Made by a program: the position numbers and the translations under genes. Below, piece by piece: positions 12,742 through 36,420 of a stretch of 64,000 bases of DNA; position 1 is the stretch's first letter; each line of letters opens with the position of its first letter. Source of the DNA: a virus. The DNA lies in IMG/VR virus record IMGVR_UViG_3300032069_000007, positions 16,288 through 80,287 of that record. One strand, written 5' to 3'. A model generated the notes under the pieces. It saw only the letters and a program-made list of their open reading frames with translations. It searched no databases and was not told the DNA's origin.

Positions 12742-13977
12742 ATGGAAGCACAAACAACGTTCGCCGAGCGCTGGGCCGTAGCGAAGGGCATCAAGTCCGA
12801 CCTTGCCGACGCGCTTGAAGATGAGGAAGAGGCCGTCGCGGATTACGACGAGCAACTCGAGGAGGCCGGCGAAGGCAAACTCAGGGAAGACCTGACGGAG
12901 ATCCGCGATGACGAGAAGGACCATGCGCGGCGACTCCGGCGCCATCTCAAGCGGCACGTCGCGGGCAAGAGTTTTGCCGACCGCTGGGCCCTCGAAAAGT
13001 CCAACCCGAGCCTCATCCGCCGCACGCCAGGGCATCCTGCCCACCAGGCGTTGCTGGACGTTGGGGCGCGCTACCACGGCACGATTCGCGACCCGAGAAA
13101 CGGGGCAGAGCATCACGTTTACTCAGTGCCGCAGAAGATGAACTTCCAAGGCACGGCTATTTCGGCCAACACTGCCGCGGGGTGGCACCGCCTATCAGGG
13201 AACTGGGCACCCATGGCTACGCCCTCCCGCCACACGCACCGCTGGTCGTCATTTGAAAACCCGGAGAGAACAGCCCGACACGTGCTCCACGGGTTCACAA
13301 ACCCAGAGCATGCCGAGGCCGCACTCAAGGCGACTCATCGGTTGACGCAAAAGTGGCAGAAACCTGCGGCTCTGGGATCGCCCAAGAAGTCCTTCGCCGA
13401 GCGGTGGGAAGTGGAAAAATCCCACGTCAAAGGCCATTACCGCCAACGCGGCTCCAAGCGCTCTTGGGTCAAGCCGCACGAGCGGAAGGACACTCCGGGT
13501 GCCCCGCGGCAGGAACCAGCGGCGGGTATCCAAACCCCGTACCGCACGCGACAGGAAGTGGAGCGCGAGACGTCGGAACTCTTCCGGGATGCTGACGTGA
13601 TCTCGACCTACACCCGCAAGGACGCCCTGGCAGACGGCACGCTCGTTGACCTGACAAAGTGGGCCTCATCCGGGCCGGAAGGTATGATGGGCGGCTTCAA
13701 GGTTCCGGTCGCGGTAACGTCCGCTGTCTGGGGCGAGATCAACGACATCCCGAAGTCGAAGCAGGGAATTCAGGACGTTCGGGGTCGCGCGCACGATGTG
13801 CTCACGATGGCAGTGCTTGCGGCAAGGAGTGCGAAGCCGGGTAACAGCGAAGTCCTGTTCCGCGTCATCATGGACATCTCCGCAACCCGGGGCCGATACC
13901 AGACCTACAAGTTGAACATTGGGCCAGGGGATGTGGGCGAGCCCGTTGTGACCATTATGAGGCCCGAAGAGGACTAG
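12742..13977 (+). CDS. Modular internal protein: helical hairpin plus DUF6573-like domain
   Basis: 411 residues in three modules separated by a recurring linker (TFAERWAVAKG, SFADRWALEKS, SFAERWEVEKS). The first is an acidic helical pair (residues about 20-70, EDEEEAVADYDEQLEE ... DDEKDHARRLRRHL) resembling a ferritin/rubrerythrin-like hairpin. The second is His/Trp-rich and unidentified. The third begins with the SHVKGHYRQRGSKRSWVKPH linker and ends in a region like DUF6573 (DVISTYTRKDALADGTLVDL, FKVPVAVTSAVWGEI). The same linker types occur in the giant proteins that follow. It opens the block of proteins that are probably injected. Confidence 0.6.
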   Translation: MEAQTTFAERWAVAKGIKSDLADALEDEEEAVADYDEQLEEAGEGKLREDLTEIRDDEKDHARRLRRHLKRHVAGKSFADRWALEKSNPSLIRRTPGHPAHQALLDVGARYHGTIRDPRNGAEHHVYSVPQKMNFQGTAISANTAAGWHRLSGNWAPMATPSRHTHRWSSFENPERTARHVLHGFTNPEHAEAALKATHRLTQKWQKPAALGSPKKSFAERWEVEKSHVKGHYRQRGSKRSWVKPHERKDTPGAPRQEPAAGIQTPYRTRQEVERETSELFRDADVISTYTRKDALADGTLVDLTKWASSGPEGMMGGFKVPVAVTSAVWGEINDIPKSKQGIQDVRGRAHDVLTMAVLAARSAKPGNSEVLFRVIMDISATRGRYQTYKLNIGPGDVGEPVVTIMRPEED

Positions 13978-13987
13978 GAGGGCCAGG

Positions 13988-14146
13988 ATGGCTGAAGCCG
14001 TTCCCGAACCCGCATTGTGGGCAGCCAAGCCGCAGCCTGACCGCAACGTCGGCGACGGGTGGCCTGCTTGGGACATTGAGTGCGATCGCTGGCGCGACCC
14101 AGAACGACCAAGGGAGCAAAGATGGCGCCGACCGAAACCGCAGTAA
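13988..14146 (+). CDS. Small hypothetical protein, 52 aa
   Basis: Starts at ATG 13988 behind a strong GGAGG site and ends at TAA 14144-14146. It is Trp/Arg/Pro-rich: MAEAVPEPALWAAKPQPDRN at the start and REQRWRRPKPQ at the end. It overlaps the start of the giant protein (ATG 14122) by 25 bases in another frame, so translation of the two is likely coupled. No function is recognised. Confidence 0.5.
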   Translation: MAEAVPEPALWAAKPQPDRNVGDGWPAWDIECDRWRDPERPREQRWRRPKPQ

Positions 14147-17100
14147 AGCCCGTTCTGGATTTGCACGACCTCGAGAAGTCGAGGGTGAGGGCGTACACCC
14201 GGCGTGGATCGAGTGGTCAGCCAGTTCAGGTTGCCGAGTATCAGACGAAGGTCCAGAAGAGACCGCAAGCCCCCGGCGGGCCGCGTCTCACGGTCGCGCG
14301 TCAGCCAGCAACTCGCTCTGCCAGAAGCCGGTTAGCCTCTGCCTCGTCGATGCGCTTCCCATCGCGCAGAAGGTCGGCGTACAGGACGTCAGCACGCACC
14401 CAGTCCGCATCCCAGGGTGAGCGGCGCTCCACGGCATCCAAGGAGGTCTTGCCTTCGTCCTCCGACTCGACCCAGGAACGGCAGACGGTGTCGCCGTCCA
14501 AAACCCAGTATGTTAGTTCGCGGTCTGGCACTGTCCGGTCCACCCCCAAGGTCATTATACCACGAACAGCAGCGGCAACGACATCGGCGGCGCTCAGCCG
14601 CAGAATATCCAACCTCGAGAGCACCGGCAACGGTCACGAGGTCGCAAAGTATGCGGCGGCGATCGCGGCTCACCTCAAGGACGCACCGACGCCCTTCAAG
14701 GGAACGTGGGAGGACAAGCGACAGCCGACAGGCGACATCCCGGACCTACTGCAGCTTGCAGAGAGTGCCAAGCCGAACTTTGAAGCGAGTCTGGGGAGGA
14801 TCGCTGATCGGCACGGCGGGGCTAGTGCCTGCCGCATCAAGCAGGAACAAACGCTCAGGACGCGGATGCGCGACAAGGGCCGGCCCGCTGATACCGTGAC
14901 GGACATTCTCGGCGGCCGGATCATCACCGATGACCCTGCGCACATCGCTCCCGTTCTTCGAGAGTTGCGAGAACTCTATCCCGTAGTAGAGGATGAAGAT
15001 AAGTTCGCCCACCCTACGTCCTTTGGCTACTGCGCCCGGCACGTGCTGGTCAAACTGCCGAGCGGCCTTACGGCCGAAGTCCAGGTCAACCTCCGAGAAT
15101 CCATCGAAATCCAGGATGTCGTCAGCCACCCGATCTACGAGGAGCTTCGCGCACCGAAGCGCAGGACCGTCGAAGAGCGCCAGGCGTTGCTCGCGAAGGT
15201 GGACGAGATACGGGGCCGGTACGCCGAGGTTCTGCGCAAGGCGACTGCGGCTCTCGGATTGGTGGTCAAGTCGCTCGTTGTTCGGTCCGTTGCGGCCTTC
15301 CAGGAGGCGAAGCACCCGCGAGTGCCACAAGGGCAGCGGGATGCCGAGGGTCGAACCGGCGGCGAGTTCGCGCCCAACCGCACCGGCAGATATACGCGGA
15401 AGGTCGTGACGCCGCGCGGCAACGTCGTCTACGTGTACCCGAAGCGCGTGGCCCAGGCCCGGCAGTCGGCCAAGTTTCGAGGGATGCAGAAGTTGGCGGG
15501 AAAACTGCCGACAATCCGCACTGCCCTCTCGCAGGATATCCGGCGCAGGGACCTCGAGGAGCGAAGAGTCTGCGCCGTTGCAGTCGCACTGATAGACAGC
15601 CTGCACTTCCGGGTCGGCACAGAGGGGGCCGAGACCGCCGGCGAGCCGACGTACGGCGTGACGACGCTTTTGGGTGACCACGTGCGCAACACGGACGCCA
15701 AGATCATCTTCCAGTTCCGCGGCAAGAAAGGGGTCCAATGGTCGCGGGAACTCCACAAGCCCGATGACCCGGATCTGGCGAGCGCCGTGGAGCAGATCTT
15801 GAGCGGCGTCGGACCGGACGAGCGCGTTTTCCGCTTTCGGGGCGCGCGCGGTCTCGAGCCTCTGACCGGGTATCGTGTTGAGAAGTACCTCAAGAGGTGG
15901 AACACGACGCCGAAGGCGTTCAGGACATTGCACGGGTCATACCTGGCGCACAGTGCGCTGTCACAATTTGTCAGCCAGCACCGCGGTCAGCGGCAGTCCA
16001 GGAAGCAGGTGAAAGCAGATATTCGCGAGGTCTGTAGCTATGTTTCCGCGGAACTGGGGAACACGCCCGCGATCGCGAAGCGGAGCTACATAATGCCGGA
16101 GATCATCCGAAGCTACATTGAGTCCGAGGGCACAAGGGTCGAGCCAGACCTCAAAATGGGGAAATCATTGGACGTCTGCCAGCTCTGGATTTTGGCAAAC
16201 GAGCACGGTCAGGTCCGCGGGTTCCTCCACAATGCGACGGAGCACGTCGAGCGGTTCGCGGACCAGCTCGCAAAGGCCCGAGTGGAGAAGTCCGACCAGG
16301 AGGTCGAGAAGTCACAGTTGGGGCTGCCGTACCATCTCGAAGGCGGGGTTGGCTCGGCGCACAGGGGGGCCAAGAAGCGGCTCGGCAGGCGCGCGCTGAT
16401 AGTCCGGACAGGCCGACAGCCAAAAGCGGCAGGCGATCCCGACCTGTCGCGGAAGATCAAGCGCATTGTCGGAGTCGTTGATACCCGCCAATACGAGGAG
16501 ATCGGCGACACGTGGAAGCCCATCGCCGGTAGTGGGACAGTGAACCAATGTGCGCGCTGCGGGAAGGACCATGAGGTTCATGCGACGGTCGAGCTTCAGG
16601 ACGGCACGCACGCCGTAGTCGGCACGAGCTGCATGAAGGCCGACAACATGGAGATGGCGCTGCGCTTCGAGAAGCTCGACCGGGCGGCCAGGCGGCTGCG
16701 GCAGCTCGAAGCCGAAAAAGCAAAGTACGATAGGGAAGTGCAGCAGTACCAGGGGGCGCTCGCGGAGGTCAGGGCGATGCCGAAGCCTCCGATCGAGGTC
16801 GTTATTGCTGAGGACCACCCTTGGTCACGGTACGAGTACAGAATGGGCGAAGCTAGGTGCTGGGGCGAGAAGCCCGATGATCCAGAGCGGCGCATGTGCG
16901 TAACATCGAACTGGGAGACGAAAGAGCTCGTGAAGCGCGGGATCCCGCACGGGCGGCGTCCTTACCCACTCCACGAATTTGACAGGGAAATCGCCAAGGT
17001 GAAAAGGCGGATCGAGGCGGTCAAGGCAGAGTCGGAAGTCGAGAAGTCCTCTCTCTCGCGCGCGCGCAAGATAGTCACGGAGATGTACGAAAATCTTTCA

Positions 17101-20100
17101 AGCGATGCCACGCTCGAGTTCGCTCAAGACGGCGAATGGTATATCGTTCCCCGCATTGAGAAGGCCGGCGCTGCGACAGCAGAACCAAAACAGAAGGAGT
17201 GGTGGTCAGGAGCTGCGACCGGAGACGAGCGCTGGATCACCGTCCATCCGGACCCGGGCAGTCCTGAGAACTACCGCCACGTCAAGGTTCGGCTCAGGCC
17301 CTCCGGCAAGTGGCACATCATCGCCGGCGGAACCGGCCTCGAGCACGAAGAGATCGTTCCGAAGCACAAACTGACGCCGGAAGAACGGGAGCGCTACGAG
17401 GAGCGCCGGAAGAAGATGGAGGGGATCCGCAAGGAGCGCGAAAAGGGCCTTGAGCGGCTGACCGAGGTGCGGGAACAGCACACGAGCGTAAAAGCCGAGC
17501 AGATGGGGATAGCACCCACACTGACCGAGGACACGCGGCGGGCCGTCGAGCACAGGGCAGAGACACGGGCGGAGGATGCCGGCCTGACCGGAGACGACCG
17601 GGACCGGTTTGTAGCCCGCGCTGTCCACGAAGCTGAGACGCGGCACCACGCTTACGTGCGCCGGGCTTGGGATCGCCTTTACTATCAGGCTCACAAGATC
17701 GCCCAGGCAGAGGACCCGGAGCTCGCCGTTGGCGAAATAGCGAAACGGCACGACGAAGAGGAGGATCGGGCCGCTGATGAAGCCGCGGGCAAGGTGGAAT
17801 CGAGCCTGCGAGAGATGATCGGCAAGCCGGCCTCCTCGGGTGAACCGGAGGCTGAGGAGCCGAAGGCTGAAGTTGCCATCGCCGAGACCGAAAGAGCTCA
17901 GCCGATTTACCGGCCGCCGAAGGTCAAGCCGATCTCCTCCGTGGAGCAGGCTATGAAGATCATTAGCCTGGAGAAGCAATCCCGCAAGATGATCGCAGAA
18001 GGCCGGAAGGAGCTTGCGAAGCTGCCCGAGGAGGAACTGTCCGGGACAGGAACGCTCGAGCAGTTTCAGATTACCGCAGAACTTGCGGACGAGCAGGGCG
18101 CGATGGCTGCTGCTATCCGCTCCGTCGACGATGCCAGGCGCGCCAGCCTCAACTCTACGCTGGTCCGCTTGGCCGACGAAACGTTCCGATCCGAGGAGGG
18201 AGCGTACGAGCGATACGGCAAGAAGCGGTACGACATTGGCCGGGCACAGGTCACAGGCGCCCTGGATGCACTGACCGGGATCTCTACCCGGTTTATAGGT
18301 TCTTCTTTCATAGACAGGCCGCTGGTGGAGGCGCTGGGAGTCGAGGCTGCGGCAATGCTCGCAACCCGCGAGATTCTGCAAAAGCGTGGGAGGCTCGACT
18401 TGGACGACGTCATAGCCGATATGGAGAGCTACCACGCGGGCGAAGCGATGAGGATCGCGCAAGAGGCCGTAGCGCAGCACGACGAGCTCGAGGGGATGCG
18501 GAAGACGGTTGACGAATCCTCTGCGCGCGCGCTCGTTGAGGGCGGGGAGACAGGAAGGCTTTTCTCCACTGCCCAGGCCCTCGCTTTTGACGGCGAACTG
18601 AACGTAGACGCCGTAAGACACTTGGGCACGGCGATAGGATCCTTGCATGCGTCCGCGACGGTCATGGCGATGCTCCGGGCGGCGAAGTCCGGGAAAGGCA
18701 AGCTCGACGAACTCAAAGTGAACATTACAGACGAGGGCGATGTCGCTCTCATTGACAGGATGTTGCACCTCCGCGGTCACTACAAGGTCACGCACGACCC
18801 TGAGACCGGCACCACCTCGGTCCTGCTTAATCCAAAGTCGCTGGCCCGCTACATGAAGTTTGCAGCCAAGGAGCGCGAAGAGTCCGACTACGCGAAGGCC
18901 CTGCAGAACGGCACAGCGAAAATTGATGTCTCGGCAGCGCCGGAGGGCTGGAAGGACCGGTACACAAGCCCCATAGACCGCCAGGAGAGAGACTTCCATT
19001 GGAAGCCGATCCAGCGGCGCGCACAGGAGTTTTTCCTCAGCCAATGCACCGGCGACGACGGCGGCGCCCTGATCGACCTGGAAGTAGGAGGCGGAAAGAC
19101 GATAATGGCGCTCGGCGCGATGGGATTCCTCCGCGACCAGGGGAAAGTGCAAAAGATGCTTTACATTGCACCGCAGGAGTCCCTGGTGGGCCAGGTCCTC
19201 GGCGAGGTCGGGGGATTCACCGACTGGAAGTCGAATCAGGTGCGCGGAGGCGCAAGGGCAAGTCTTGACGACATCAGGGGGCGCTATTCCGACCCTTCGT
19301 TCGTTCAGGTGGTTTCTGCCCCTACGGTGGGCGCAGACGTCCGCCGACTGGAGCAGCTTGGGGTAAACCCATCGGACTTCTTCCGCGAGCTCGGGTACGA
19401 TGGAATGGTGGCCGACGAGGCCCACAAGTTGGTGTCTGGCGTCGGGGGGGGCAAGAACGCCCGCGCGCTCAGGCGTATGCGTATGCGCTACAACCTGGCG
19501 ATGACCGGCACGCTCGTGACCAACGCGATCTCTCAGCCCTTCGACCTTGTCCGGTGGGTCGCGGGAGCAAAGGTGGACAGCCGTGCGAAGATTCTGCGCA
19601 AGTATGGGGAGGTCGGGCTGGGAACCACGGCATGGCAGGACGCTGTCAACGCCGACGTCCGCCAACAGGTGGATCGGCACACATTCCACGGGGCCGGGAC
19701 CATCAAAGCCAAGCTCTATCGTAACGAACTGAAGGTGGGCCTCTCGGAGACGCAGCGGCAGGACCTTGCCCAGGCGGTTAAGGCGGACAAGGTGCGCCGT
19801 GATGAGTATGCCAAGTCCAGGCCAGCCACTCCCGAAAAGGCCGAGCAGGCGCGCAGAAAACTCGACTTCGACCGCGACCGCGAGGTCTTCGAGATTCTCC
19901 ACAACCGGGACTGGAAGCAGAACGACAGGTTGCGCGAGATCGCAAAGACGATCAAGCGGACGGTGGCCGACAACCCTTCACAGAAGTTCATCCTAGTGGC
20001 CGATACTGATTATGGACTCTCTGCCATCCGGTCGGTCACGCGGATGCTGGCTGATCTGGGCTACGGCGACAGGACAGCACTTTTCGCGAGTCAGGACGCC

Positions 20101-20424
20101 TCCGGTCAGGCGATCTCACAGAAGAAGATGATGCGCGAACAGGCCCGCTTCGCGGTCGATTCTAGCTGCCAGTTCGCGGTACTTGCCGCTCCGCAGGCGA
20201 TCGGGCGCAATATGGAGGCCGCCGGAGTCTTGGTACACGTCACGCTCCCGCCGGACGCCGGGTCGGAGAAGCAGCGGACAGGGCGCGCCTGGCGCGAGGG
20301 CCGGCAGGGAGATGTGAACGAGACGCTTTTCTATACCGACCAACATCCGTTTGATATGAGCCGCCTGCTGCAACTGAGGCGGACCGCAGGTCCGCTCGCC
20401 GCCATATCAGGAGGCCAACCGTGA
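14122..20424 (+). CDS. Giant polyvalent protein: RelA/SpoT-like, topoisomerase IB and SNF2-like helicase domains
   Basis: About 2,100 residues from ATG 14122 (GGGAG site). Order: a linker (RVRAYTRRGSSGQPVQVAEY); a Ser/Arg-rich segment antisense to a nested ORF; a RelA/SpoT-like domain (about 237-375; RIKQEQTLRTRM, VTDILGGRIITDD, FGYCARHVLVK, AEVQVNLRE); DNA topoisomerase IB (about 427-666) with FRTLHGS (R601, H604) and the nucleophile Tyr656 in KRSYIMP; a CxxC...C metal module (QCARCGKDHEVH); an RWITVHPDPGSPENYRHV module; a long charged helical region; and an SF2/SNF2-like helicase (about 1620-2100; GGGKT with K1659, DEAH from D1765, QRTGRAWREGRQG). The design matches polyvalent proteins of phages, thought to be injected to protect or prepare incoming DNA. 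Confidence 0.88.
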   Translation: MAPTETAVKPVLDLHDLEKSRVRAYTRRGSSGQPVQVAEYQTKVQKRPQAPGGPRLTVARQPATRSARSRLASASSMRFPSRRRSAYRTSARTQSASQGERRSTASKEVLPSSSDSTQERQTVSPSKTQYVSSRSGTVRSTPKVIIPRTAAATTSAALSRRISNLESTGNGHEVAKYAAAIAAHLKDAPTPFKGTWEDKRQPTGDIPDLLQLAESAKPNFEASLGRIADRHGGASACRIKQEQTLRTRMRDKGRPADTVTDILGGRIITDDPAHIAPVLRELRELYPVVEDEDKFAHPTSFGYCARHVLVKLPSGLTAEVQVNLRESIEIQDVVSHPIYEELRAPKRRTVEERQALLAKVDEIRGRYAEVLRKATAALGLVVKSLVVRSVAAFQEAKHPRVPQGQRDAEGRTGGEFAPNRTGRYTRKVVTPRGNVVYVYPKRVAQARQSAKFRGMQKLAGKLPTIRTALSQDIRRRDLEERRVCAVAVALIDSLHFRVGTEGAETAGEPTYGVTTLLGDHVRNTDAKIIFQFRGKKGVQWSRELHKPDDPDLASAVEQILSGVGPDERVFRFRGARGLEPLTGYRVEKYLKRWNTTPKAFRTLHGSYLAHSALSQFVSQHRGQRQSRKQVKADIREVCSYVSAELGNTPAIAKRSYIMPEIIRSYIESEGTRVEPDLKMGKSLDVCQLWILANEHGQVRGFLHNATEHVERFADQLAKARVEKSDQEVEKSQLGLPYHLEGGVGSAHRGAKKRLGRRALIVRTGRQPKAAGDPDLSRKIKRIVGVVDTRQYEEIGDTWKPIAGSGTVNQCARCGKDHEVHATVELQDGTHAVVGTSCMKADNMEMALRFEKLDRAARRLRQLEAEKAKYDREVQQYQGALAEVRAMPKPPIEVVIAEDHPWSRYEYRMGEARCWGEKPDDPERRMCVTSNWETKELVKRGIPHGRRPYPLHEFDREIAKVKRRIEAVKAESEVEKSSLSRARKIVTEMYENLSSDATLEFAQDGEWYIVPRIEKAGAATAEPKQKEWWSGAATGDERWITVHPDPGSPENYRHVKVRLRPSGKWHIIAGGTGLEHEEIVPKHKLTPEERERYEERRKKMEGIRKEREKGLERLTEVREQHTSVKAEQMGIAPTLTEDTRRAVEHRAETRAEDAGLTGDDRDRFVARAVHEAETRHHAYVRRAWDRLYYQAHKIAQAEDPELAVGEIAKRHDEEEDRAADEAAGKVESSLREMIGKPASSGEPEAEEPKAEVAIAETERAQPIYRPPKVKPISSVEQAMKIISLEKQSRKMIAEGRKELAKLPEEELSGTGTLEQFQITAELADEQGAMAAAIRSVDDARRASLNSTLVRLADETFRSEEGAYERYGKKRYDIGRAQVTGALDALTGISTRFIGSSFIDRPLVEALGVEAAAMLATREILQKRGRLDLDDVIADMESYHAGEAMRIAQEAVAQHDELEGMRKTVDESSARALVEGGETGRLFSTAQALAFDGELNVDAVRHLGTAIGSLHASATVMAMLRAAKSGKGKLDELKVNITDEGDVALIDRMLHLRGHYKVTHDPETGTTSVLLNPKSLARYMKFAAKEREESDYAKALQNGTAKIDVSAAPEGWKDRYTSPIDRQERDFHWKPIQRRAQEFFLSQCTGDDGGALIDLEVGGGKTIMALGAMGFLRDQGKVQKMLYIAPQESLVGQVLGEVGGFTDWKSNQVRGGARASLDDIRGRYSDPSFVQVVSAPTVGADVRRLEQLGVNPSDFFRELGYDGMVADEAHKLVSGVGGGKNARALRRMRMRYNLAMTGTLVTNAISQPFDLVRWVAGAKVDSRAKILRKYGEVGLGTTAWQDAVNADVRQQVDRHTFHGAGTIKAKLYRNELKVGLSETQRQDLAQAVKADKVRRDEYAKSRPATPEKAEQARRKLDFDRDREVFEILHNRDWKQNDRLREIAKTIKRTVADNPSQKFILVADTDYGLSAIRSVTRMLADLGYGDRTALFASQDASGQAISQKKMMREQARFAVDSSCQFAVLAAPQAIGRNMEAAGVLVHVTLPPDAGSEKQRTGRAWREGRQGDVNETLFYTDQHPFDMSRLLQLRRTAGPLAAISGGQP
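14301..14543 (-). CDS. Nested antisense ORF inside the giant protein gene
   Basis: The minus frame 14630-14301 reads like a genuine protein, e.g. ELTYWVLDGDTVCRSWVESE and DADWVRADVLYADLLRDGKR. The overlapping + frame is a Ser/Arg/Thr-rich stretch with no domain character, the usual look of antisense sequence. A consensus extended -10 (TGGTATAAT, minus strand 14562-14554) lies just upstream of a GTG at 14543, giving about 80 residues; TTG 14549 is an alternative start. This layout resembles the antisense HNH in intein 1. The function is not recognised. It could be a small insertion that left the host frame open. Confidence 0.5.
   Translation of the reverse strand: MDRTVPDRELTYWVLDGDTVCRSWVESEDEGKTSLDAVERRSPWDADWVRADVLYADLLRDGKRIDEAEANRLLAERVAG
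14554..14562 (-). promoter_or_regulatory. Extended -10 promoter element for the antisense ORF
   Basis: Minus strand reads TGGTATAAT, a perfect TATAAT with the TGn extension. No good -35 is present at 16-18 bases. The predicted transcript start is close to the GTG at 14543, again near-leaderless. Confidence 0.42.
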
Positions 20425-20519
20425 CCGTTCGTGATAGAACGTGCGCGTTCATCCGCGCGGCGATCCGGGCCCACCTGAGACGCTATCGGGCATGGCCGAA
20501 GGGGGACAGCGGTGGCTGA
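20421..20519 (+). CDS. Tiny hypothetical protein, 32 aa
   Basis: GTG 20421 overlaps the TGA of the giant protein (GTGA) and has AGGAGG upstream. It encodes a basic, probably helical peptide (RTCAFIRAAIRAHLRRYRAW) and ends at TGA 20517-20519, overlapping the next start. The overlaps on both sides and the strong ribosome site support a real coupled gene. Function unknown. Confidence 0.42.
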   Translation: MTVRDRTCAFIRAAIRAHLRRYRAWPKGDSGG

Positions 20520-20784
20520 AACAAAGCACCTATCGGGGCTCATCGCCCATCAGTCGCTCCTCACGCACCGGCTCGCAGGTCGCGAGAAGGACCTCGAGGA
20601 GCACATGGACAAGATCGAGCAGGCACTCAAAGTCAACGCCGAACGACAAGAAGGTTGCCGACGCCAGGGGAATCCGGAAGAGCTTTCGCGGCTTGTGGCA
20701 GACGAGAAGAGGCTCACGGCTGCTTACCAGCGACTTGCCGAAGTCGTGGGGCGCATTCATATCGCCCCAGTGAACGAGGAGTGA
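20512..20784 (+). CDS. Small coiled-coil protein
   Basis: 90 residues from GTG 20512 with a GGGGG ribosome site. Nearly all helical and charged (HRLAGREKDLEEHMDKIEQA, ADEKRLTAAYQRLAEVVGRI), compatible with a coiled coil. It lies between two giant proteins in the same run of overlapping genes. It may be an assembly or packing partner. No family recognised. Confidence 0.6.
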   Translation: MAETKHLSGLIAHQSLLTHRLAGREKDLEEHMDKIEQALKVNAERQEGCRRQGNPEELSRLVADEKRLTAAYQRLAEVVGRIHIAPVNEE

Positions 20785-20790
20785 TAAACA

Positions 20791-21129
20791 ATGTTGATGC
20801 TTATGCTAAGCAAGGAAGAGCGGTCTGCCCTGATGCGGCAAGTAACCGAGCGGATGCGGACCGTCGTCAAGGACTATCGCCGGACGCACAACATCACTCA
20901 AGCTCGACTTGCACGCCAACTTGATTGTGGGAGTCCCGCCGTGATTGGCAACTACGAGAACGGCAAAACTATTCCCCATTTCTTCACGCTGACCCAACTG
21001 TTTCTGGTGTGCGTACAGAATGCCCCGGAAGATGTCCTCGACATGATGAGGCGTCTGGGTTTGCCGGTCGACGAGGCCCTAGTAGAGATCCGATCGGGAA
21101 GGGGGGTCCCCGAATGCCAGCGTGGTTGA
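20791..21129 (+). CDS. Cro/CI-type HTH regulator
   Basis: 112 residues. Residues about 30-75 carry an XRE-type helix-turn-helix (NITQARLARQLDCGSPAVIG NYENGKTIP in sequence). The C-terminal 35 residues are helical and may dimerise. It lies inside the operon of giant proteins rather than in a divergent switch, and its 3' end overlaps the next gene's start (21114). It may tune expression of this block or, like its neighbours, act early in the host. The operator is not identified. Confidence 0.78.
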   Translation: MLMLMLSKEERSALMRQVTERMRTVVKDYRRTHNITQARLARQLDCGSPAVIGNYENGKTIPHFFTLTQLFLVCVQNAPEDVLDMMRRLGLPVDEALVEIRSGRGVPECQRG

Positions 21130-24062: not shown

Positions 24063-24065
24063 AGA

Positions 24066-24263
24066 ATGCCAATGCCGAGCCGACACGTTTGCGCCGGATG
24101 CCGTCATCTTCGCGAGTGGCCCCGTTGCGCGGCTTTTCCAGGGGGCATACCGCAGGAGATACAGCGGCAGGAACACTTTCACATCGCGCCCTATCCGGGC
24201 GATCGAGGAATACACTTTGAGCGGAACAAAGAGATCAGGCATGAGAACCGAAGAGCTGCGTAA
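24066..24263 (+). CDS. Small Cys-containing phage protein
   Basis: 65 residues starting 3 bases after the previous stop. CAGCRHLREWPRCAAFPGGI followed by PYPGDRGIHFE matches a widespread small phage/prophage protein with the pattern CxxC...C-AAFPxGIP...PYPGDxGIxFE, whose function is unknown. The cysteines suggest metal binding. It overlaps the start of the next giant gene (24241), consistent with coupling. Confidence 0.7.
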   Translation: MPMPSRHVCAGCRHLREWPRCAAFPGGIPQEIQRQEHFHIAPYPGDRGIHFERNKEIRHENRRAA

Positions 24264-27009: not shown

Positions 27010-27260
27010 TGGTTGCCGGAAGCAGTCTAAGAGGTCTCAGGCCCGTACCGGGGGCACCGGGCCTGGACTGGGCGCGAATGGAAGTGTTTGAGGGCTGGCT
27101 CGTGTTTATCACGGACCAGATGAACTATGTCCAGTTCTTTGTCCCAATGGTCGCCGTACCCTCTGCGAGGTCTGTAGAATTCGCGGACGGCCTCGATTGG
27201 TGCCCGCCAGACGCCGTGACCACCGTGCTCGCTGAGTTGAGAAGGGAAGTGCTGAATTGA
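27009..27260 (+). CDS. Small hypothetical protein, 83 aa
   Basis: The ATG overlaps the preceding TGA (TGATG), so translation is coupled. The middle is hydrophobic (WLVFITDQMNYVQFFVPMVA) with an acidic, Trp/Pro-containing C-terminal half. No signal peptide or known motif. The role is unknown. Confidence 0.55.
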   Translation: MVAGSSLRGLRPVPGAPGLDWARMEVFEGWLVFITDQMNYVQFFVPMVAVPSARSVEFADGLDWCPPDAVTTVLAELRREVLN

Positions 27261-27541
27261 CTGTACAATATGACACTCCACCGGACATGATGCCGGAGAT
27301 CAACCGCCTTCTGGTGCTCGCCGTCGGGTCGGTGAGGAGGGCGCATTTCGCGCAGGTGTTCCGGGCCGAGGTCGGGCCGCTGTTCGAGGGCCTGTCGAGC
27401 CTCCGGTACGACCAGATCGAGGAAGCGTTCCTGGACCAGATGGAGGCGGCATTCGACCTAGCTGGCAGTGTGCGGGATGCCTTTCAACTTAGAGATCGAT
27501 TGACAGCGGAGAGTGACCCACAAGATGGCAACCGTGGTTAA
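27257..27541 (+). CDS. Small hypothetical helical protein, 94 aa
   Basis: TTG start overlapping the previous TGA (TTGA). Helical throughout, with LLVLAVGSVRRAHFAQVFRA and DQIEEAFLDQMEAAF. Its end overlaps the start of the intein-bearing helicase gene. No recognised family; placement suggests a partner of the giant proteins. Confidence 0.55.
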   Translation: MTVQYDTPPDMMPEINRLLVLAVGSVRRAHFAQVFRAEVGPLFEGLSSLRYDQIEEAFLDQMEAAFDLAGSVRDAFQLRDRLTAESDPQDGNRG

Positions 27542-30500
27542 GGTCTTAGGCAGGCAGGGCAACCGGCTCAACATCGCGCGCCGGGAGTGCTCCTGCGAGG
27601 TCAAGTTGCCGTTTGGCCTGCGCTTCACCGACGGCGGCAAGATGCACCGGGTCCACGTCTGCCCGCAGTGCGAGCGCCTCCACGGGTACGAGGACATCCG
27701 TAAGGGAACCCTGCTGCGCAGTCAAGTCGTCTTCGCCCCCGGGTTGCCGCTCTTATCGAAGGCACTCGAGCTCAAGGCCGGCCAGCGCTGGGTAACGCTG
27801 CATCCGGATGCCGAGAACCCAGAAAACTACGTCCACGTCCTGATCCAAGAGCACCCCGATGGCACAGCAAGCGTCATTCGGGGAGCTGAGGGCAAGCTCA
27901 ACTACCTGCGGCTGACAAAACTCAAATCGCCGGAGGACTGGCAGGAATCCGGAAAGCGCCTTGCCGAGGAGCGCGAGAGGCGGCGGAAAGAGCGTGAGGC
28001 CGCGATGACCGAAGAGGAGCGCCAGACCACGCACGACGTAGAAGCTGGCATACTGGCCCGCAAGGAGCTGGAGGACGCCAAGTACGTATCGCAGGTGATG
28101 GAGGCGCACGGGATAGGCGAGTCCGACTGGAAGCTCGAAGAAAAGACCTTGGTAGCCCTGCCGGGGAAGTCACGCGAGATGGCCGAGAAGCAGCACCTCC
28201 GCAAGATGGTCACGGTGGCGAACAAGCTCGTGGACCGCACGCGCAAGGATCTGCTGGACGCTCACGACCGATTGGCCGAAGCCGAGCTCGGCGATATGCC
28301 GCTCGGGGACGTAGGTATCGAGCGGCCACTCGAGGGCAAAGGAAGCGGGTATATCGCCGCAGTCGAGAACGCGGCAGAGGCGGCTGGTCTAAGCGTCAGG
28401 CAGAAGATCGCGGAGAAGGAGGACATAAGCTGGAGAGGGTTCCTTGACCGAAGCGACGGCGATCCTCTCAAGGCTGCCGAGAAGCTCGCAGCGGTCCAGC
28501 GCCTGCACGCAGCGCTCCGCGAGGTTCGTGAACCGATCAAGGAGCTCAGAACCGCCGGCCTATTGGATAGGCCGCTGAAACCGGAACTTCCGCCAACCGA
28601 GAAGATCGCTGACATCCTCGTGGCGCAGAAGCAGCACACCGACTACGAGCGGCAGTACCGACAGGTGAAGGGTGAGATAGAGGAACACGGGGTTCCCAAG
28701 GCCGCTCTTGAGGTCGTGACGGAACTCAGGCCGGAGGAGGTCGAGGAGATCATCAGGGCCGCTGCCGCAAAGCCCTTAGACGAGGAAGCCGCCAAGGACA
28801 AGGTCGCCGAGGAACTGGCCGAGGATGCGATGCAGCGTGCGGCCGAGAGGCTGCTTGCGACCGCCGACAAGGAGGAGGCCCTTCAGCCACTCCGCAAATA
28901 CGTGACGATGGGGCATTACGACAGTTTGAACCGCTCCTGCCTCGCGGCAACGCGCACCCCCCTGCCCCTCGGCCGTCTTCAGGCCGACATCCTGGGACCA
29001 GAGGCCAGTGCCCAGGTGCTCGCCGCCCATCTCAGAGAAACGCTCTCGGACACGGATTACAGGGCAGCACTCCACGGCGTTGCCAACTACCATCGCAACT
29101 ATCAGCGGCAGGCAAGCGAACAGGCCCTCCAGTCGTACGCGTCGACAAAGCAGCAGGCCGACGAACTCTCCGAGCGCCCGATATCCGACATCGGGTCTCT
29201 TGTTGAGGCACAGGTTGCGAATGCCGACCGGATTGACCTCGTTGACGAGGCGCGGGAGACTCTCGGCGTGGCGCTCGGACGGCTGGAAGCTACGGCTGCG
29301 CTTGTCCAAGCGCTTGAGCTTCAACACGCACGCAAGGGAGTGCCGGAAGAGCTGCGGGTTCCGCTCGGTGCTATCTCAAATCAGCAGGCCATTGCGCAAG
29401 CGCGCGTGCTGGGACTCAGCCACCCTGTCATGGAGGAGATGGAGCCGGGGGTGGAACCCGATTACCGAATCGACTCCGACGGCGTCAACAAGTTCCTGAC
29501 TATCTTGCCGAACGGGGCAGCCAAGCTCGTGACGAAGCCCGATCGGGAGCTCGCAGAGAAGCACGCACTCGCAACCGAGATCAAATCAGGTAGGCGGGAT
29601 CAGAGGCACTGGCTCCCCGCAGGAATTGTCTCGAGGCCGCAGAGCACATTCGAGGATCCCGAGAAGCGCGCGGTGCAGTTCTCGGAACCGCTCGAACTCA
29701 GGCCCAAAATGCGGTATGCGGAGGTCAACCGCGGACTCAAGCACTATATCGCGCGGCGTCTAGCGGACGGCCAGGACCCTGAGAGCCTGCGTTCCGACCT
29801 GCTTTCGGCAGAGTTCACCGCGGACCTGCCGGACGATCTTCTGGGAGACGGCGGCGGATCCTACTACAAGGCCCTAAGCGACCTCGGCTGGTTCACCTAC
29901 AACCAGGTAGAAAACAAGTCCCCGGAGGGGCTGGAGGCCATAGCCGAACACGCAGTTGAGGAGTACGAACGCGAACACGGGGCGTCTGAGGAGGTCGCCG
30001 CCCTCAACTCGCAGTCCATCCCACTGAAAGACAGCCCGGTGTGCTACGAGGCTCTCTACAGGGCCGTTGCGGCTCACCCCGAAGCCAGGGTAGCGTTCAA
30101 GGCTCTCTCCGAGCTGACGCCGGAGGAGCGCGGGCTGATCCAGCGCTTCTTCTACCGGGTCATGACCGAGGAGAAGTCGCCCCAGGAAGAGGCTGAGGAG
30201 AAGAGGCTTACCGCAAGACCGACCCAGGCCCCGGCTAGGCAGGAGGCGCTGTGGGCCGAGCAAGAGGTGCCCGCAGAGACGACGGAGGCCCGGAAACCCG
30301 CCAAGCCAGGACGCGAGACCCCGTGGACCCGCTACGTCAAGGCGCAGGGATCTGTCCAACATGCCTATGAGAGTGTCCAGGACGTCATGAGAGGCGCCGT
30401 CTCGGCGCAGTTCGCCAAGCACATGGGAGGCATACTTGGCCGCGAGCTGAAGACCGGCAACAAGCGCATCGCAAACTGGGATGACCACCTTCTCGGGCTC

Positions 30501-33500
30501 GTTTCTCCAGAACGACAACAGCAGCTCCTGGAGGCGCGGCAGGCAGAAATGGCGCGCAAGCACGCGAGGGTCGCGACTCGCGCCCGGGGCAAGTTCGCAA
30601 CGGAGGAGCGGCTCGGCATCAGGCGTGAACGCGCGGAGGCCCTCGATCGGGCCATCCGTGGAGCTGCGCTCTCGCTGTTCAAGGAGAAGCCGCTGCCCGC
30701 GATCGAGCGGGTTACGATCGGCGCCCGGGCGGAGAAACAGCTCCAGTCCATCTTCCCCTACGTTGCCCAGAACTTTGAGGTTGACCGGCCGGTAGACATC
30801 CCTCACGATGTAAATATGAGCGAAGGTGAGATGGTAAAGCAGCAGCGCGCGGTGAAGCTGATCGAGGGCCTGAAGCGGCTTTCGCTCAACCTGGGCGTCG
30901 GCACCGGCAAGACCCTGGTCGCGTTGGGCAGCTTCTCAGACCTGCAAGCACGCGGCGCAGTCAACCGCGCCATCTTCGCTGTGCCAGCCAGCCTTACGGC
31001 GCAGTTCGGGTGCGTTCGGGGCGACACGGAACTCTGTGACCCTATCCGCGGACTCACCATGACATTTGAGGAGTGGCTGCTTTCGGGCCTGAGGCCCTTT
31101 GTCTGGACCCGGGCCGCGGGTGGACAAGTAACCATCGAACTGGCGTCTCGCCCATTCCTGAAGGGCCTTGATCGGATGTATCGCGTGGAGACGGACGATG
31201 GAGCGTCAATTGTTGTGACCGCAAAGCATCGCTTCCTTACGCCGAAGGGTTGGAGGCCGTTGTGCGAGTTGCCCGTCGGCTCGCTTGTTTCTTGCGCCGT
31301 CGCTCTGAAGCGTGCAACAAGCGATGCTCACGGTGGCTCCCGAGCAACTGGAGATTATCGATCCGGTTGTCATCCTTTTGGCCATTACGGTGATGAACGA
31401 GCTCATCCGGCTCCAGATAACGGCCAACGTGCTTTTCCATTATCAGGCGGTGCTCGAGATAGTAACCCAGTGAATTTGCCTGAGGGTGGTCCGGCACAAA
31501 CAACGCGATGTAGCCAGCAGAACGCCGAATCCGACCTCCCTTCCAGTTGTTTGCCTTTTCGCCCTTGTGACGGTTGGCATTGCCGAGTCTTGGAACGTCG
31601 AGCTTCTTCAGGCGAAGCCGAACCGCATCCTCGCTTGCGCCGTTATCCAAAATGCGGGCTATCTCCGAACACGACCGCCCCTGCTCAGCCAACTCTCGCA
31701 ACCGCTCGTCGCTCCACTCGTACCCAGGTGGCCTGCGCCCGTTCAGGCGGAGTTTCCGCATTCGACGAAGGACGGTCGCTTGTGTTGTCCCAAAGTAACG
31801 AGCCAGCCAAGATAGCGATCTCCCTTCTTGAACGAAGCGGCGGAGGTCGTTCTCATCTATGGAATGAGGTCGACGACCAGTGCGCAGAGCCTCGGAAAGC
31901 CCAAGAGCCCTCACCCGACGAGCCAAGTAGCTCTGACTCCTCCCGGTCTGCCGTGACATCCAAATGCAGGTTCGATCCTCGGCAACCCAATCCCGCAGTT
32001 GCTGATCCGGGACGGCGGCGTATTCTGGGAGACTTGGCGGAGTCAGTCCCAATTCAAGCAAGCGCCGCCGAAGCGTGTGCCGTGCAAGGCCGAATTGGCG
32101 CTCCATCCAAGCCAGCGACCTTCCCTGGCTGTGGTAGCGCCTCAATGCCGTTTCATCAACCTGTTTCGTCGGTTGGCTCATGCACCCAGTATAGCACAAT
32201 TCGCAACATCTCGGAAGTGGGGCTTGCCCTTGTCTTCGACATCGCAGTTGCACGGACACACAACTACTGGGCTGGCGGGTTCTGGAATCACAATTCGGAA
32301 GCCTTGAGGTTCTACGAACCTGGCAGGTTCAAATGGTTCGCCGACCCGACGGCCAGCGCTGAGGACCGCCGGGCCGCCTATACTGATCCCGATCGGCAGA
32401 TATGCGTTGTCACCCATCAGGCCCTCAGAGACGACCTCGTCTGGGCGGTGGGCCAGGATCGGTTCGGGGGCAATGTACGAAAAGCGGAAGACTGGATGCG
32501 TGCGGCTCCCGAGGACGAACGCAGGCACGAGGTACGTGCGGCAGCGGAGAAACAAGGGTGGAAGTGGGACATGTGTTTGCCGTACGAGGCTCCGGTGGCG
32601 ATGGCGGACGGAACAACTCGCAGGATCGGAGATCTCGTGGAATCCCGATCAAGCGATCCCGTGCTGTCACTCAACCTTCAGAGCGGTAGGTTGGAGGCCA
32701 AGTCAGTGTCCGATTGGTTGCGCTTGGAGTGCCCGCACCCCCAACTCTACCGAATCCTCGCGGGCGAAGCAAGCGTGATATGCACAGGTGATCATAAGAT
32801 ATGGACACTCGGTAGGGGGTATGTCCGCGCTTGCGAGGTGCGAGTAGGTGACCGACTTTTGGCTTTACAACCGACCGACTCTCTGCTAGAATTGGAACAC
32901 GATACCTTGAACCGGGGTGACAGAAATGGCAGTGAGGGATATGTTGGTCGGAACGCTTCTGGGCGATGCCTCGATGGGCCAGAGCGCTGCCGGGACGCCG
33001 CGAGTAACGATCAAGCACTGTCCCGCGCAAGAGGATTATCTATTCCACAAGTACGATCGACTGAGATCAATATGCCCATCTGCGCCGAAGTTCGTCAGGA
33101 ACGGGGGATGGGGCGGCGACCTCTGGGTCTTTCAGACGAGCTGCCTGGATTGGTTGCGGCAGTACCGGGAGATGATGTGGCGCGACGGGAGGCGTCGGAT
33201 TGCCGACGCCGTGAAGGATCACTTGACCCCGGAGGCACTGGGTTACTGGTATATGGACGACGGTTCGCTGTCGAACGGGTGTGCCACACTCAGCACACAC
33301 AGGTATTTGCGGGAAGATCAACGGAAGCTGCGATCTTGGATCCGCCAACTGTACGAGATCGAGGTTCTGGAACGCTACGACCGAAGGCACGACCGGTTTT
33401 ATATGGCGATGCGCAGAGAGGCGACGCGCCGGTTTGTGGCACTTCTGAGTCCCCACGTGCCGGAGTCCATGAGATACAAGCTGAATGTGCCGAATGCGGA

Positions 33501-35084
33501 GTTGCTGCCGTACATAGCGCCAACCCCGGAGGCCCTGCCGGGACGACTGTGCGTGATCTGCGGTCAGCGGTATGCCTTTCAGCAGGTCTGCGACTCTCCG
33601 GAATGCAAGCAGACCAAGAGGGACTGCGACAACCGGCGTTGGTACGACGCGCACGCTGCCGAGATCTCGGCGAGAACTCACGAGGAGCATCTGCGGAATC
33701 TCGGAGAGGGAACGTGCGAGGTGTGCAAGAGTCAATTCCTCCGCACCAGTCGCCTCCATGTACGCACGTGCTCGGCGGCATGTCGAGCGGAGTGGAAACG
33801 CCGTCGGGCCCTGGCATGGTACTACCAGAACTGCGATGCCATGAAGCACCAGTAACCTCAGTCGAGTTCACAGATGCGCCTGCGTTTGTCTATGACATAA
33901 CGGTGGAGGAGAACCACAACTTCTTCGGCTACGGCCTCCTCGTCTCCAACTGTCTTGTTGATGAGGGTCAGGATATTCTCCGCCGGCTTCATAAAGCCGA
34001 CAGCCTGATGCAGCACGCCATCGACGCTCTGTCATATCACACTCCCTATTACATCTATTCCACGGCCGACCCCGTCAAGAACGACTGGTCGGAAGTCCAC
34101 GACGTTTTGGCAAAGGTAGCACCCGACCGTTATCCCGCCGCCAGCCGGGAGGAGTTCCACCGCCGTTACGGAATCGACTGCCTCCAGACTCAGCAGGCGC
34201 TCAGACAGGAAATGCACCCATTCGCCTATGCCGAGCGTATTCCTCTGGGCATCGTGGCAAGCAGGAGGCAGGAGCCAGTGCAGCTCTCTGCCCCAGAGCA
34301 ATCCGAGTACGACGGTGTCCTCCAGGCATATCGAACCGCGCAGACGGCACGGCGCGCCGGAAAGGTAGACGATGCCGTCCCCGCGTTGCGGCAGATGAAC
34401 CCCCGTGCCTTCGAGGGCAAAAACGAAGCCGAACAGCGGACAGAGGCGGGGAGGATGTTGCAGTTCCTCTCGGCCGCCAGAGACTCCGCGCTGGACCGAA
34501 TCGTCAACGCAGGTTCGGTGCGCGGGGCAGGCGTGCGCATACCGGCCAAACTTGAAACATTGCACGCGTTCGTGCAGTCACGAATAGCAGAGAAGGGCGC
34601 TGGCCTCGTCTTCGCGCACTCGATAGAGGCGCAGAACCAGATCGCGGGATACCTCAAGAGCAAGGGGATCAAGGTGGGCACCCTCTCAGGGTCTGACCCC
34701 GGGGCGAAACGCGAGCGCACGCGCCAGGACTTTCAGGCCGGCAAGTTTGACGTCCTCTGCCTCAGCGATGCTGGATCGACGGGGCTCAACTTGCAGAGGG
34801 CCGCATTTTGCTGTAACTTCGACTCGCCGTATACGGCGAAGACCTACGAGCAGCGGATCGGCCGCATGGAGCGGCTGGGCCAGACCAACCCTGATATGAA
34901 GGTTCTGGATCTGGTTACGACCACTCCCTACGAGCGCGGCCGGAGGCGACTCCTGGAGCGCAAGGGGAAGCTGCGGGAGGCGCTGACCGCGCCTTACGAA
35001 ATGCTTGATGACACCGATTTGGGGAGAGAAATCGCTGAGGCGCGAAGCAGTGAGATCGAGAAGGCAGTACTTAAAGCCGCTTAG
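27525..35084 (+). CDS. Giant SNF2-like helicase polyvalent protein interrupted by two inteins
   Basis: One open frame of about 2,519 residues; GTG 27513 is an alternative start but its ribosome site would be too close. The N-terminus holds a Cys cluster ([18 protein letters not shown]) and the [18 protein letters not shown] module also found in the giant protein at 14122. A long charged helical region follows, then an SF2/SNF2-like helicase: GVGTGKT (K1129), motif Ia-like [17 protein letters not shown] split by intein 1, motif II VDEGQD split off by intein 2, then TGLNLQRA and [12 protein letters not shown]. Spliced length is about 1,632 residues. Both inteins sit at conserved helicase motifs, as inteins usually do. 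It is nearly the last gene before the terminator at 35430. Confidence 0.88.
31237..32181 (-). CDS. Antisense HNH homing endonuclease nested in intein 1, with four HTH repeats
   Basis: 314 residues from the ATG whose first base is 32181; the frame extends to 32259, but the promoter lies inside that stretch. The N-terminal 190 residues contain four repeats of about 45-50 residues of the form xLRxxxxxGRSxxWxxRxxG...RRxxxLGL, each a likely helix-turn-helix. The C-terminal HNH_3-type core reads [38 protein letters not shown] and HREHRLLH. It is transcribed against its host intein and should cut intein-free alleles of the helicase gene. Most intein endonucleases are fused in frame on the sense strand, so this arrangement is unusual. 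Confidence 0.85.
32188..32216 (-). promoter_or_regulatory. Promoter of the antisense HNH gene, leaderless layout
   Basis: On the minus strand, -35 TTCCGA (32216-32211), a 17-base spacer and -10 TATACT (32193-32188). The ATG follows after 6 bases, exactly as at the HNH gene at 2309. The -35 is weak, the -10 is good. Confidence 0.52.
32864..32892 (+). promoter_or_regulatory. Sigma70-like promoter of the LAGLIDADG gene inside intein 2
   Basis: TTTACA (32864-32869), an exact 17-base spacer, and TAGAAT (32887-32892). It falls within intein-coding sequence after block B, and 33 bases before the ATG at 32926. This is among the clearest promoter matches in the window. Confidence 0.62.
32926..33855 (+). 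CDS. LAGLIDADG homing endonuclease nested out of frame in intein 2
   Basis: 309 residues from ATG 32926 (GTG 32917 is possible; GGGGTG lies upstream). The two catalytic helices are [14 protein letters not shown] and [14 protein letters not shown], as in compact double-motif enzymes. The C-terminus adds two Cys fingers ([10 protein letters not shown] ... CDSPECKQ and TCEVCKSQF ... CSAACRAEW), resembling those of the HNH enzyme at 2309. It has its own promoter, start and TAA stop, and its frame differs from the intein frame, which remains open throughout. It is therefore an independent gene invading an intein rather than a standard bifunctional intein. Confidence 0.87.
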   Translation: MAVRDMLVGTLLGDASMGQSAAGTPRVTIKHCPAQEDYLFHKYDRLRSICPSAPKFVRNGGWGGDLWVFQTSCLDWLRQYREMMWRDGRRRIADAVKDHLTPEALGYWYMDDGSLSNGCATLSTHRYLREDQRKLRSWIRQLYEIEVLERYDRRHDRFYMAMRREATRRFVALLSPHVPESMRYKLNVPNAELLPYIAPTPEALPGRLCVICGQRYAFQQVCDSPECKQTKRDCDNRRWYDAHAAEISARTHEEHLRNLGEGTCEVCKSQFLRTSRLHVRTCSAACRAEWKRRRALAWYYQNCDAMKHQ

Positions 35085-35085
35085 T

Positions 35086-35352
35086 ATGGATCACCAAGAG
35101 GTTCGTAAGATGCTTGGTTGGCAGCGGCAACTAGCCCTTATATTCGACGCGTTCGAGCGTGTGCGTTGGGCCGAGGTCATGCGAGAACTTCGGAGGCTCG
35201 TCTCCGGCGGCACAAGAATGGCTGAGGTGATGCAGCACTGGGTTATCGTCGAAGATGCGTGCGGTCTACGCCTGATGACGCGCGAGCGGGCGGAGGCCGA
35301 GTTGGAGGCTTGTGTCGTGATTCCGCAGGACTTGTACAGACCGCACGGATAA
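35086..35352 (+). CDS. Small hypothetical protein after the helicase, 88 aa
   Basis: Starts at ATG 35086 right after the helicase TAG. Helical and charged (GWQRQLALIFDAFERVRWAE, TRERAEAELEACVVIPQDLY). It is the last gene before the terminator. No motif recognised. Confidence 0.55.
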   Translation: MDHQEVRKMLGWQRQLALIFDAFERVRWAEVMRELRRLVSGGTRMAEVMQHWVIVEDACGLRLMTRERAEAELEACVVIPQDLYRPHG

Positions 35353-35790: not shown

Positions 35791-36420
35791 ATGATTGCGC
35801 AGGACCCAACCCACCAATCCACGCCGCACGAGTTGTTCGACCGCTACCAGATGCTCGCCCACAAAATGGCCGGCCTCGCCAAGGTTGACCCAGAGACGAG
35901 AAGAGACCTGGACCAAGAGGCCCTGATCGCTCTCTATGAAGCCAGCCAGAAGTACGATGCCGGACGTAGGTTGCCATTCCCCAGTTTTGCGCGCATCTAC
36001 ATCCGGGGGAGGATAAATCACTATCTTCGCGACCACCTCGACATGATCCGAACGCCCTGCCGTGTCTGGGAGGGGGGCGGCCCACCAGTGCCCTGTATTT
36101 TGGAAGCCGACTACGGCTTCCAGACGCTACAGAAACAAGCAGATTTTGACGGGTACGACTGGCACCCGGGCCTCGATAATCTGCCGGACCAGGGACGGGG
36201 GCAAGTCCTCAGGGCGATAACGAGAGCTCTGGCCGCGATCCGAGTAAGCGCAGTCGACCGCCGGATACTAGCCGCAGTTTTCTTGGAGGAACGCGAGCCG
36301 GAGGAGACCGCGAAGGTCCTCGGGGTCGCTCCTCAGCGGGTGCAGGATGCCATAGACAGGCACCTCGGCAAGCTCAGATGGAGGGTGGCCCAGATGCTGG
36401 AGTTCTATGCGGCACTTTAA
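35791..36420 (+). CDS. Phage sigma-70-like factor
   Basis: 209 residues. Residues about 14-85 resemble sigma region 2 (RDLDQEALIALYEASQKYDA, then FPSFARIYIRGRINHYLRDH), which binds the -10 and core polymerase. Residues about 150-205 resemble region 4 (VDRRILAAVFLEEREPEETA, LGVAPQRVQDAIDRHL). The linker between them is short and atypical. It is the first recognisable regulator ahead of the head operon. Its own TAA stop lies within dyad motif copy 3. A role in switching host polymerase to late genes carrying the dyad motif is a plausible inference, not shown. Confidence 0.78.
   Translation: MIAQDPTHQSTPHELFDRYQMLAHKMAGLAKVDPETRRDLDQEALIALYEASQKYDAGRRLPFPSFARIYIRGRINHYLRDHLDMIRTPCRVWEGGGPPVPCILEADYGFQTLQKQADFDGYDWHPGLDNLPDQGRGQVLRAITRALAAIRVSAVDRRILAAVFLEEREPEETAKVLGVAPQRVQDAIDRHLGKLRWRVAQMLEFYAAL

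Follow-up and report, generated by a model that had tools for sequence, protein, structure and literature searches.

Inteins are usually described with their endonuclease as a fused domain. Dassa et al. are said to have reported in 2009 fractured genes with split inteins, in which a free-standing endonuclease gene lies at the intein split site. The present analysis concerns a window of 64,000 nucleotides, positions 16,288 to 80,287 of the IMG/VR virus record IMGVR_UViG_3300032069_000007, a metagenome-derived single assembly of 80,287 bp. The window encodes four giant proteins, and the largest, giant protein 4, is very probably an SNF2-like helicase with two composite mobile elements inserted in it, each consisting of a mini-intein and a separately expressed, out-of-frame endonuclease gene. 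The fractured genes resemble these elements in having a free-standing endonuclease gene at the intein split site. They differ in that the host gene there consists of two open reading frames (ORFs) spliced in trans, whereas in the window each endonuclease gene is spanned by a single unbroken host ORF.

The nearest published precedent is the ShiLan domain, which was described in 2025 together with the Pacc40 insertion in phage DNA methylases and contains an out-of-frame HNH gene (Arsenault, Gosselin, Gogarten; PMC11855218). These insertions have no detectable splicing domain, and their authors could assign them to neither inteins nor introns (PMC11855218); a 2025 announcement also reports a methylase HNH of the ShiLan kind. 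The ShiLan insertion shares with the window an HNH-type endonuclease gene lying out of frame in a host gene that retains its own open frame, and a disjunct, homing-like distribution. In contrast, the carriers in the window are HINT inteins, the HNH gene is antisense rather than on the same strand, and LAGLIDADG_2 endonucleases are also involved.

Canonical full-length inteins have the same HINT fold, Cys1, block B TxxH, C-terminal Asn and conserved insertion sites, whereas the endonucleases of the window are not fused in frame and the in-frame middle of each intein is a foldless filler. The control for the canonical state was the Omega-type mycobacteriophage Hannaconda, whose RNA ligase gp150 (L259, 1910-4312) has an in-frame LAGLIDADG intein. 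Hannaconda gp150 is annotated as an HNH endonuclease, and its LAGLIDADG-type enzyme resembles the nested one. The cyanobacterial DnaX inteins (about 23 species, +1 frame) belong to the same sense-nested class as intein 2 of the window. The Ssp DnaX intein splices in E. coli according to excerpts of PMC3443213 and PMC3620165, and this competence supports the mechanism proposed below; in the same excerpts the insert is called a complete or partial endonuclease domain, with out-of-frame coding unmentioned. A literature search returned no account of inteins with an out-of-frame or antisense endonuclease. The 1997 DnaX report and the preprint 10.1101/2025.01.02.630785, on Actinobacteriophage inteins of non-canonical architecture, lay outside that search, and the preprint may contain part of the finding on nested endonucleases.

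Candidate composite inteins in giant protein 4

Giant protein 4 has 2523 amino acids (aa), well above the 1371-1715 aa of its homologues, and Pfam Intein_splicing matches it in two stretches (4.5e-20). The features of this gene are as follows.

27513-35084, + strand: giant protein 4, SNF2-like helicase (PHROG_62) split by two predicted inteins; 2523 aa, 1636 aa if spliced
31011-32294, + strand: intein 1, 428 aa, residues 1167-1594, ending FWNHN and followed by SEAL (junction alignment, AlphaFold, Foldseek)
32574-33950, + strand: intein 2, 459 aa, residues 1688-2146 (Pfam Intein_splicing, junction alignment, AlphaFold, Foldseek)
31237-32181, - strand: HNH homing-endonuclease gene opposite intein 1, 314 aa, HTH repeats and HNH_3 (Pfam HNH_3 3.8e-10)
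32926-33855, + strand: LAGLIDADG_2 homing-endonuclease gene out of frame with intein 2, 309 aa (Pfam PF03161, 2.4e-28)
32188-32196, - strand: extended -10-like TGcTATACT, 6 nt before the antisense ATG (read from the sequence)
32864-32892, + strand: promoter-like TTTACA-17-TAGAAT with an extended -10, upstream of the nested LAGLIDADG_2 gene (suggestive only)

Intein 1 is located just after helicase motif Ia (AQFG/C...HN/S, the slash marking the cut point), and intein 2 immediately before the DExx box VDEGQ (WDM/C...SN/C); both are typical conserved insertion sites. Removal of residues 1167-1594 and 1688-2146 leaves a protein of 1636 aa whose alignment with four intein-free phage helicases shows no gap at either junction. 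The initial annotation had counted this protein among its four giants. The 2523-aa ORF exists, but the protein resolves into the 1636-aa helicase and two predicted inteins comprising 887 residues, which had been overlooked, as had the two complete homing-endonuclease genes inside them.

Both inteins have Cys1 and the block B TxxH (CVRGD...VTAKH and CLPYE...CTGDH). At the C-terminus, intein 1 ends in the canonical HN/S, and intein 2 ends in SN/C, without the penultimate His. In AlphaFold models based on relatives, the pLDDT is about 90 or more for residues 1-104 and about 393-428 in intein 1 and for residues 1-104 and 422-459 in intein 2. The best Foldseek matches of the two models are RecA and DnaB inteins, at 1e-8 and 2e-6. 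The fillers between the HINT halves, of about 290 residues in intein 1 and about 310 in intein 2, are mostly below pLDDT 50 and are probably disordered. Pfam matches nothing in the in-frame middle of either intein, and no endonuclease domain was found in the intein frame. With the complete inteins of the window as queries, tblastn against phage records gave weak matches over the splicing domain only.

The endonuclease coding capacity lies in other frames. The HNH_3 core of the antisense gene retains its catalytic His and Asn, and the LAGLIDADG_2 gene keeps both LAGLIDADG-like catalytic motifs, GTLLGDAS and YWYMDDGS, and its own stop codon. The latter gene has an alternative GTG start at 32917, and GGGGTG precedes its ATG. 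The extended -10-like site possibly points to a leaderless start of the antisense HNH gene, although it is suggestive only. For the stop test, synonymous codons of the nested endonuclease genes were permuted 20,000 times and the stops arising in the intein frame were counted. The expected numbers were 7.31 in intein 1 and 8.66 in intein 2, whereas none was observed, and 0 of the 20,000 permutations reached zero. Other frames across the inteins contain up to 13-16 stops. The GC content of third positions at intein 2 is of the coding type in the LAGLIDADG frame (0.73) and not of the coding type in the intein frame (0.48). The intact motifs, the stop codon and the absence of stops in the host frame therefore show that the endonuclease genes are intact and that the host frame has been selected to stay open.

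At about 61% GC, spurious ORFs of great length are frequent, and the record is a single metagenomic assembly. Both facts would suit nested ORFs that are decayed or arose by chance, or an intein 2 of the ordinary in-frame kind that was disrupted by two sequencing errors compensating each other. The intact LAGLIDADG-like and HNH motifs, the stop codon and the coding-type third positions argue against such an origin, as do the recurrence of the arrangement in dozens of genomes, complete cultured phage genomes among them, and the better conservation of the endonuclease frame than of the filler, so that it appears very improbable. Self-splicing introns, removed from the RNA, would make the open host frame irrelevant, and homing-endonuclease genes are typical intron cargo. 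However, an Rfam scan of 12000-36500 at E up to 1 found no intron and no other RNA family, both inserts have HINT splicing halves, and stops are missing from the host frame where several would be expected; an intron origin is thus scarcely credible.

In the proposed mechanism, the middle loop of each mini-intein (HINT domain) would have been colonised by a complete homing-endonuclease gene, and one stretch of DNA would then specify two products. Read in the helicase frame, it would give a long, stop-free and probably disordered linker that is removed along with the intein, and the endonuclease would come from translation of its own frame or strand. The helicase precursor would be translated and both inteins, with their fillers, spliced out to yield the 1636-aa helicase, while the endonuclease would be made separately from an internal start. 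The endonuclease would cut the intein-free allele of another phage, and repair would copy the entire intein-plus-gene unit into the cut allele. For the window elements, we infer splicing, endonuclease expression, cleavage and homing from their sequences.

Recurrence and mobility of nested endonucleases

A natural presence/absence polymorphism occurs in cultured Xanthomonas phages. Gp40 of phage FoX3 (L010, 8411-10777) has an intein with a nested endonuclease at the helicase DECH box, and FoX5, FoX2 and Murka, about 99% identical in the gp40 gene, lack exactly the 942-bp in-frame intein. The other 1425 bp of the FoX3 gene align without gaps with those of the three sister phages, and changes are located right at the junction, as expected in the aftermath of homing. 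The sole endonuclease in the FoX3 element is the out-of-frame one. The exact 942-bp difference between FoX3 and its near-identical sisters indicates that the intein and its nested endonuclease move as a unit. The FoX3 intein is unannotated, and gp40, a DEAD/DEAH-type helicase, is annotated either as a helicase or as a head morphogenesis protein, the latter in RefSeq.

Recurrence was examined with alignments built from the nested endonucleases; giant proteins 1 and 4, used as single queries against viral contigs, had given essentially no matches. The LAGLIDADG_2 alignment led to 160 loci from viral contigs and species genomes, 157 of which could be scored. Nesting, with one other sense frame open throughout and lying within a much longer host ORF, was found in 36 of the 157 against 0.28 expected by chance, an all-locus expectation that allows for an ascertainment component in the group statistics; none of the remaining 121 loci has an open sense frame. 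The host ORFs encode large terminases of phages, with the insert at the Walker B site, one phage helicase and the DnaX proteins of about 23 species of cyanobacteria. Pfam scores 23 of the 27 nested host ORFs tested as inteins. One terminase intein, of 634 aa (L033, 3691-5592), continues past the nested endonuclease domain with a filler of unusual length, and the own-frame ORF of that domain reaches 5494. Open antisense frames in L134 and L175 were put down to the codon bias of GC-rich DNA.

In cyanobacterial DnaX, the endonuclease is conserved at 66.7% and the filler at 42.9%, with the endonuclease ahead in all 207 of 207 pairs, and 51% of the substitutions fall at endonuclease third positions. 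This pattern indicates that selection acts on the endonuclease protein in these relatives. In a FastTree phylogeny of 147 endonucleases, the nested states need 4 changes, compared to 31 with shuffled labels. The DnaX and FoX3 copies (+1) group together with weak support, and most phage-terminase copies form another group with the window copy (+2).

Several terminase copies have a Shine-Dalgarno-like sequence and a start codon just before the conserved domain. These starts bear on the possibility that a sense-nested endonuclease is made as an intein-endonuclease fusion through programmed ribosomal frameshifting and not from a start of its own. The sense-nested gene does begin soon after the N-terminal splicing half, and the endonuclease frames of FoX3 and DnaX reach upstream of the conserved domain, both in favour of a fusion. 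Nevertheless, many phage copies have the start codon and Shine-Dalgarno-like sequence in that position, such as TTGGAGGTTA-ATG in L016, and frameshifting is inapplicable to the antisense class, which makes this route unlikely in comparison with separate initiation.

The HNH alignment revealed at least 11 further viral loci with an HNH gene antisense to an intein. Their hosts are mostly terminases, at the Walker A motif, and also include a helicase, a primase-helicase and a clamp loader. All are in one phase, identical to that of the window, and the splicing halves of the inteins align. Because of the shared phase and the alignable splicing halves, one ancestral antisense unit is the simplest reading. 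A Shine-Dalgarno sequence precedes the antisense starts in L187, L188, L218 and L246. In L178 (3011-5011, - strand), an HNH gene lies antisense to a long ORF ending in a capsid-like region; no intein was found there and the locus was set aside, although it could be an antisense insertion without a splicing domain. Taken together, homing endonucleases overprinted on inteins, whether in a different frame or antisense, are likely to form a widespread and long-lived class of composite mobile elements. In the antisense family, a single ancestral unit of HINT halves and an antisense HNH gene in one fixed phase would have reached the genes for terminases, helicases, a primase-helicase and a clamp loader, with both strands under coding selection for two proteins that together constitute one selfish element.

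Several points weigh against this interpretation of the window and its relatives. Direct evidence for mobility comes from FoX3 and is limited to it, rather than from the window elements or the antisense family. The Ser-Asn end of intein 2, in place of His-Asn, may slow its splicing. Promoter-like sites are overall no commoner than chance (2 found, 1.0 expected), and the nested loci were chosen partly on their open spanning frame. The window is a single metagenome-derived record without a close relative. The case is built on sequence and predicted structure, and data of this kind show the intein boundaries and the HINT fold, both as predictions, the intact endonuclease motifs, the selection against stops in the host frame, the selection on the endonuclease protein in the cyanobacterial relatives and the exact FoX3 presence/absence pattern.

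The giant-protein block and its polyvalent repertoire

Four large + strand ORFs with a few small ORFs in between lie within 12742-35352, and the block sits between the portal gene and the head protease and capsid genes. Its features, other than giant protein 4, and its boundaries are as follows.

7257-9107, + strand: portal gene, left boundary
14080-20424, + strand: giant protein 1, 2114 aa, RelA/SpoT-like, topoisomerase IB and SNF2-like helicase
14833-15138, + strand: RelA/SpoT-like synthetase domain, aa 252-353 of giant protein 1 (Pfam RelA_SpoT 1.5e-8)
15451-16083, + strand: topoisomerase IB catalytic domain, aa 458-668 of giant protein 1 (Pfam Topoisom_I 9e-26)
18997-20319, + strand: SNF2-like helicase module of giant protein 1 (Pfam ResIII 2e-10, PHROG_62 1.5e-17)
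20925-24062, + strand: giant protein 2, 1045 aa, histidine phosphatase and InPase
22143-22637, + strand: histidine phosphatase domain with intact RHG motif (Pfam His_Phos_1 9.5e-32)
22869-23231, + strand: InPase domain PF18823 (Pfam 7e-41)
24217-27009, + strand: giant protein 3, 930 aa, GHKL ATPase and HExxH (WLM-like)
36378-38687, + strand: head maturation protease gene, right boundary
39486-40970, + strand: major capsid protein gene

The ORF list agrees with the initial annotation in its four giant ORFs separated by small genes, and Pfam and PHROG confirm its RelA/SpoT, topoisomerase IB, histidine phosphatase, pyrophosphatase-like and two SNF2-like helicase domains. The RelA/SpoT domain aligns weakly with RelSeq 1vj7 (E 0.007) and retains the R-x-K, Asp, Gly-Tyr and Glu positions. 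The topoisomerase IB domain matches the Deinococcus-type solved enzyme 2f4q at 9e-24, with its active-site region including the Tyr intact, and the histidine phosphatase domain matches the solved enzyme PDB 1ebb at 4.5e-17. ResIII/DEAD helicase and Helicase_C (7.5e-17) domains are also found by Pfam in the giant-protein set. The GHKL and HExxH assignments hold as motifs, but their Pfam scores are weak. For the GHKL ATPase (Pfam 0.003), the N-box and G boxes are visible and a rIIA match (PHROG 8e-7) is consistent; the HExxH reads LIHEMTH, and its zincin-type support is a weak WLM match only (Pfam 0.04).

Multidomain phage proteins that contain RelA/SpoT, inorganic pyrophosphatase and SWI2/SNF2 helicase domains are a theme of the work on polyvalent proteins (PMC5512222), and the block resembles these in combining such domains in giant proteins near structural genes. 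Several domains of the repertoire occur in one polypeptide, in a phage with portal-terminase packaging. By contrast, Pfam finds no methylase-helicase fusion in the four giants. The paper on polyvalent proteins does not mention inteins (0 mentions, PMC5512222). The gene position has parallels in cultured phages: an orthologous helicase lies between portal and capsid genes in Bordetella phage PHB04 and Morganella phage Mecenats66, and just upstream of the head protease and capsid genes in Thermus phage Cumys. The window major capsid protein is distant kin of those of SPO1-like and Thermus phages. In PHB04, the slot between portal and capsid holds, as separate neighbouring genes, RelA/SpoT, phosphatase, InPase-type, a giant methylase and the orthologous helicase. 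In Pseudomonas phages, proteins with InPase-type domains are annotated as minor head proteins.

The Pfam domains, the gene position, the PHB04 slot and PMC5512222 thus bear out the match to the polyvalent repertoire proposed by the initial annotation. Most likely, the block comprises polyvalent proteins and adds a further example to a theme already known; the proteins are possibly packaged and injected. A fuller version of this idea, in which the block consists simply of packaged and injected giant proteins that counter host defences through nucleotide signals and the inserts are incidental, draws on the same domain set, gene position, PHB04 slot and published theme, and its prospects appear slightly better than even. 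It nonetheless leaves 887 residues of the largest protein unaccounted for and names no specific second-messenger enzyme beyond the divergent RelA/SpoT domain. No direct link to cyclic-nucleotide or NAD signalling was seen, and PADLOC returned generic helicase matches only. The polyvalent and intein explanations are compatible, not exclusive.

An FAERW-type head-targeting motif is absent from all four giants and present only in two neighbouring proteins. The motif KSF(A/G)(E/D)RWx(L/V/I)xK(S/G) occurs three times in a DUF6573-containing protein (12742-13977, + strand) and once in the head protease. A separate short KSHVKGHW-like stretch is common to the DUF6573 protein and giant proteins 3 and 1. 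Both kinds of stretch are possible head-assembly or targeting signals. Directly after the block, a small gene (35791-36420, + strand) resembles phage RNA polymerase sigma factors (phrog_351, 2.7e-10), and a free-standing HNH endonuclease gene (2309-2974, + strand; phrog_15471) lies right after the terminase gene.

Significance for intein evolution

Unnoticed inteins can inflate both the domain counts and the sizes of giant phage proteins. Nested elements are easily missed, as in the annotation of FoX3 gp40, and databases probably contain a class of mobile elements that goes unseen. With cultured FoX3 and its intein-free sisters FoX5, FoX2 and Murka, a direct test of homing by an out-of-frame endonuclease is within reach. 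If the interpretation is true, the antisense loci would provide a clear case of antisense overlapping genes kept by selection. Endonuclease genes that are nested in inteins and expressed on their own, some even from the opposite strand, would also account for the return of mobility to mini-inteins and connect full inteins with fractured genes and with homing genes that stand alone.

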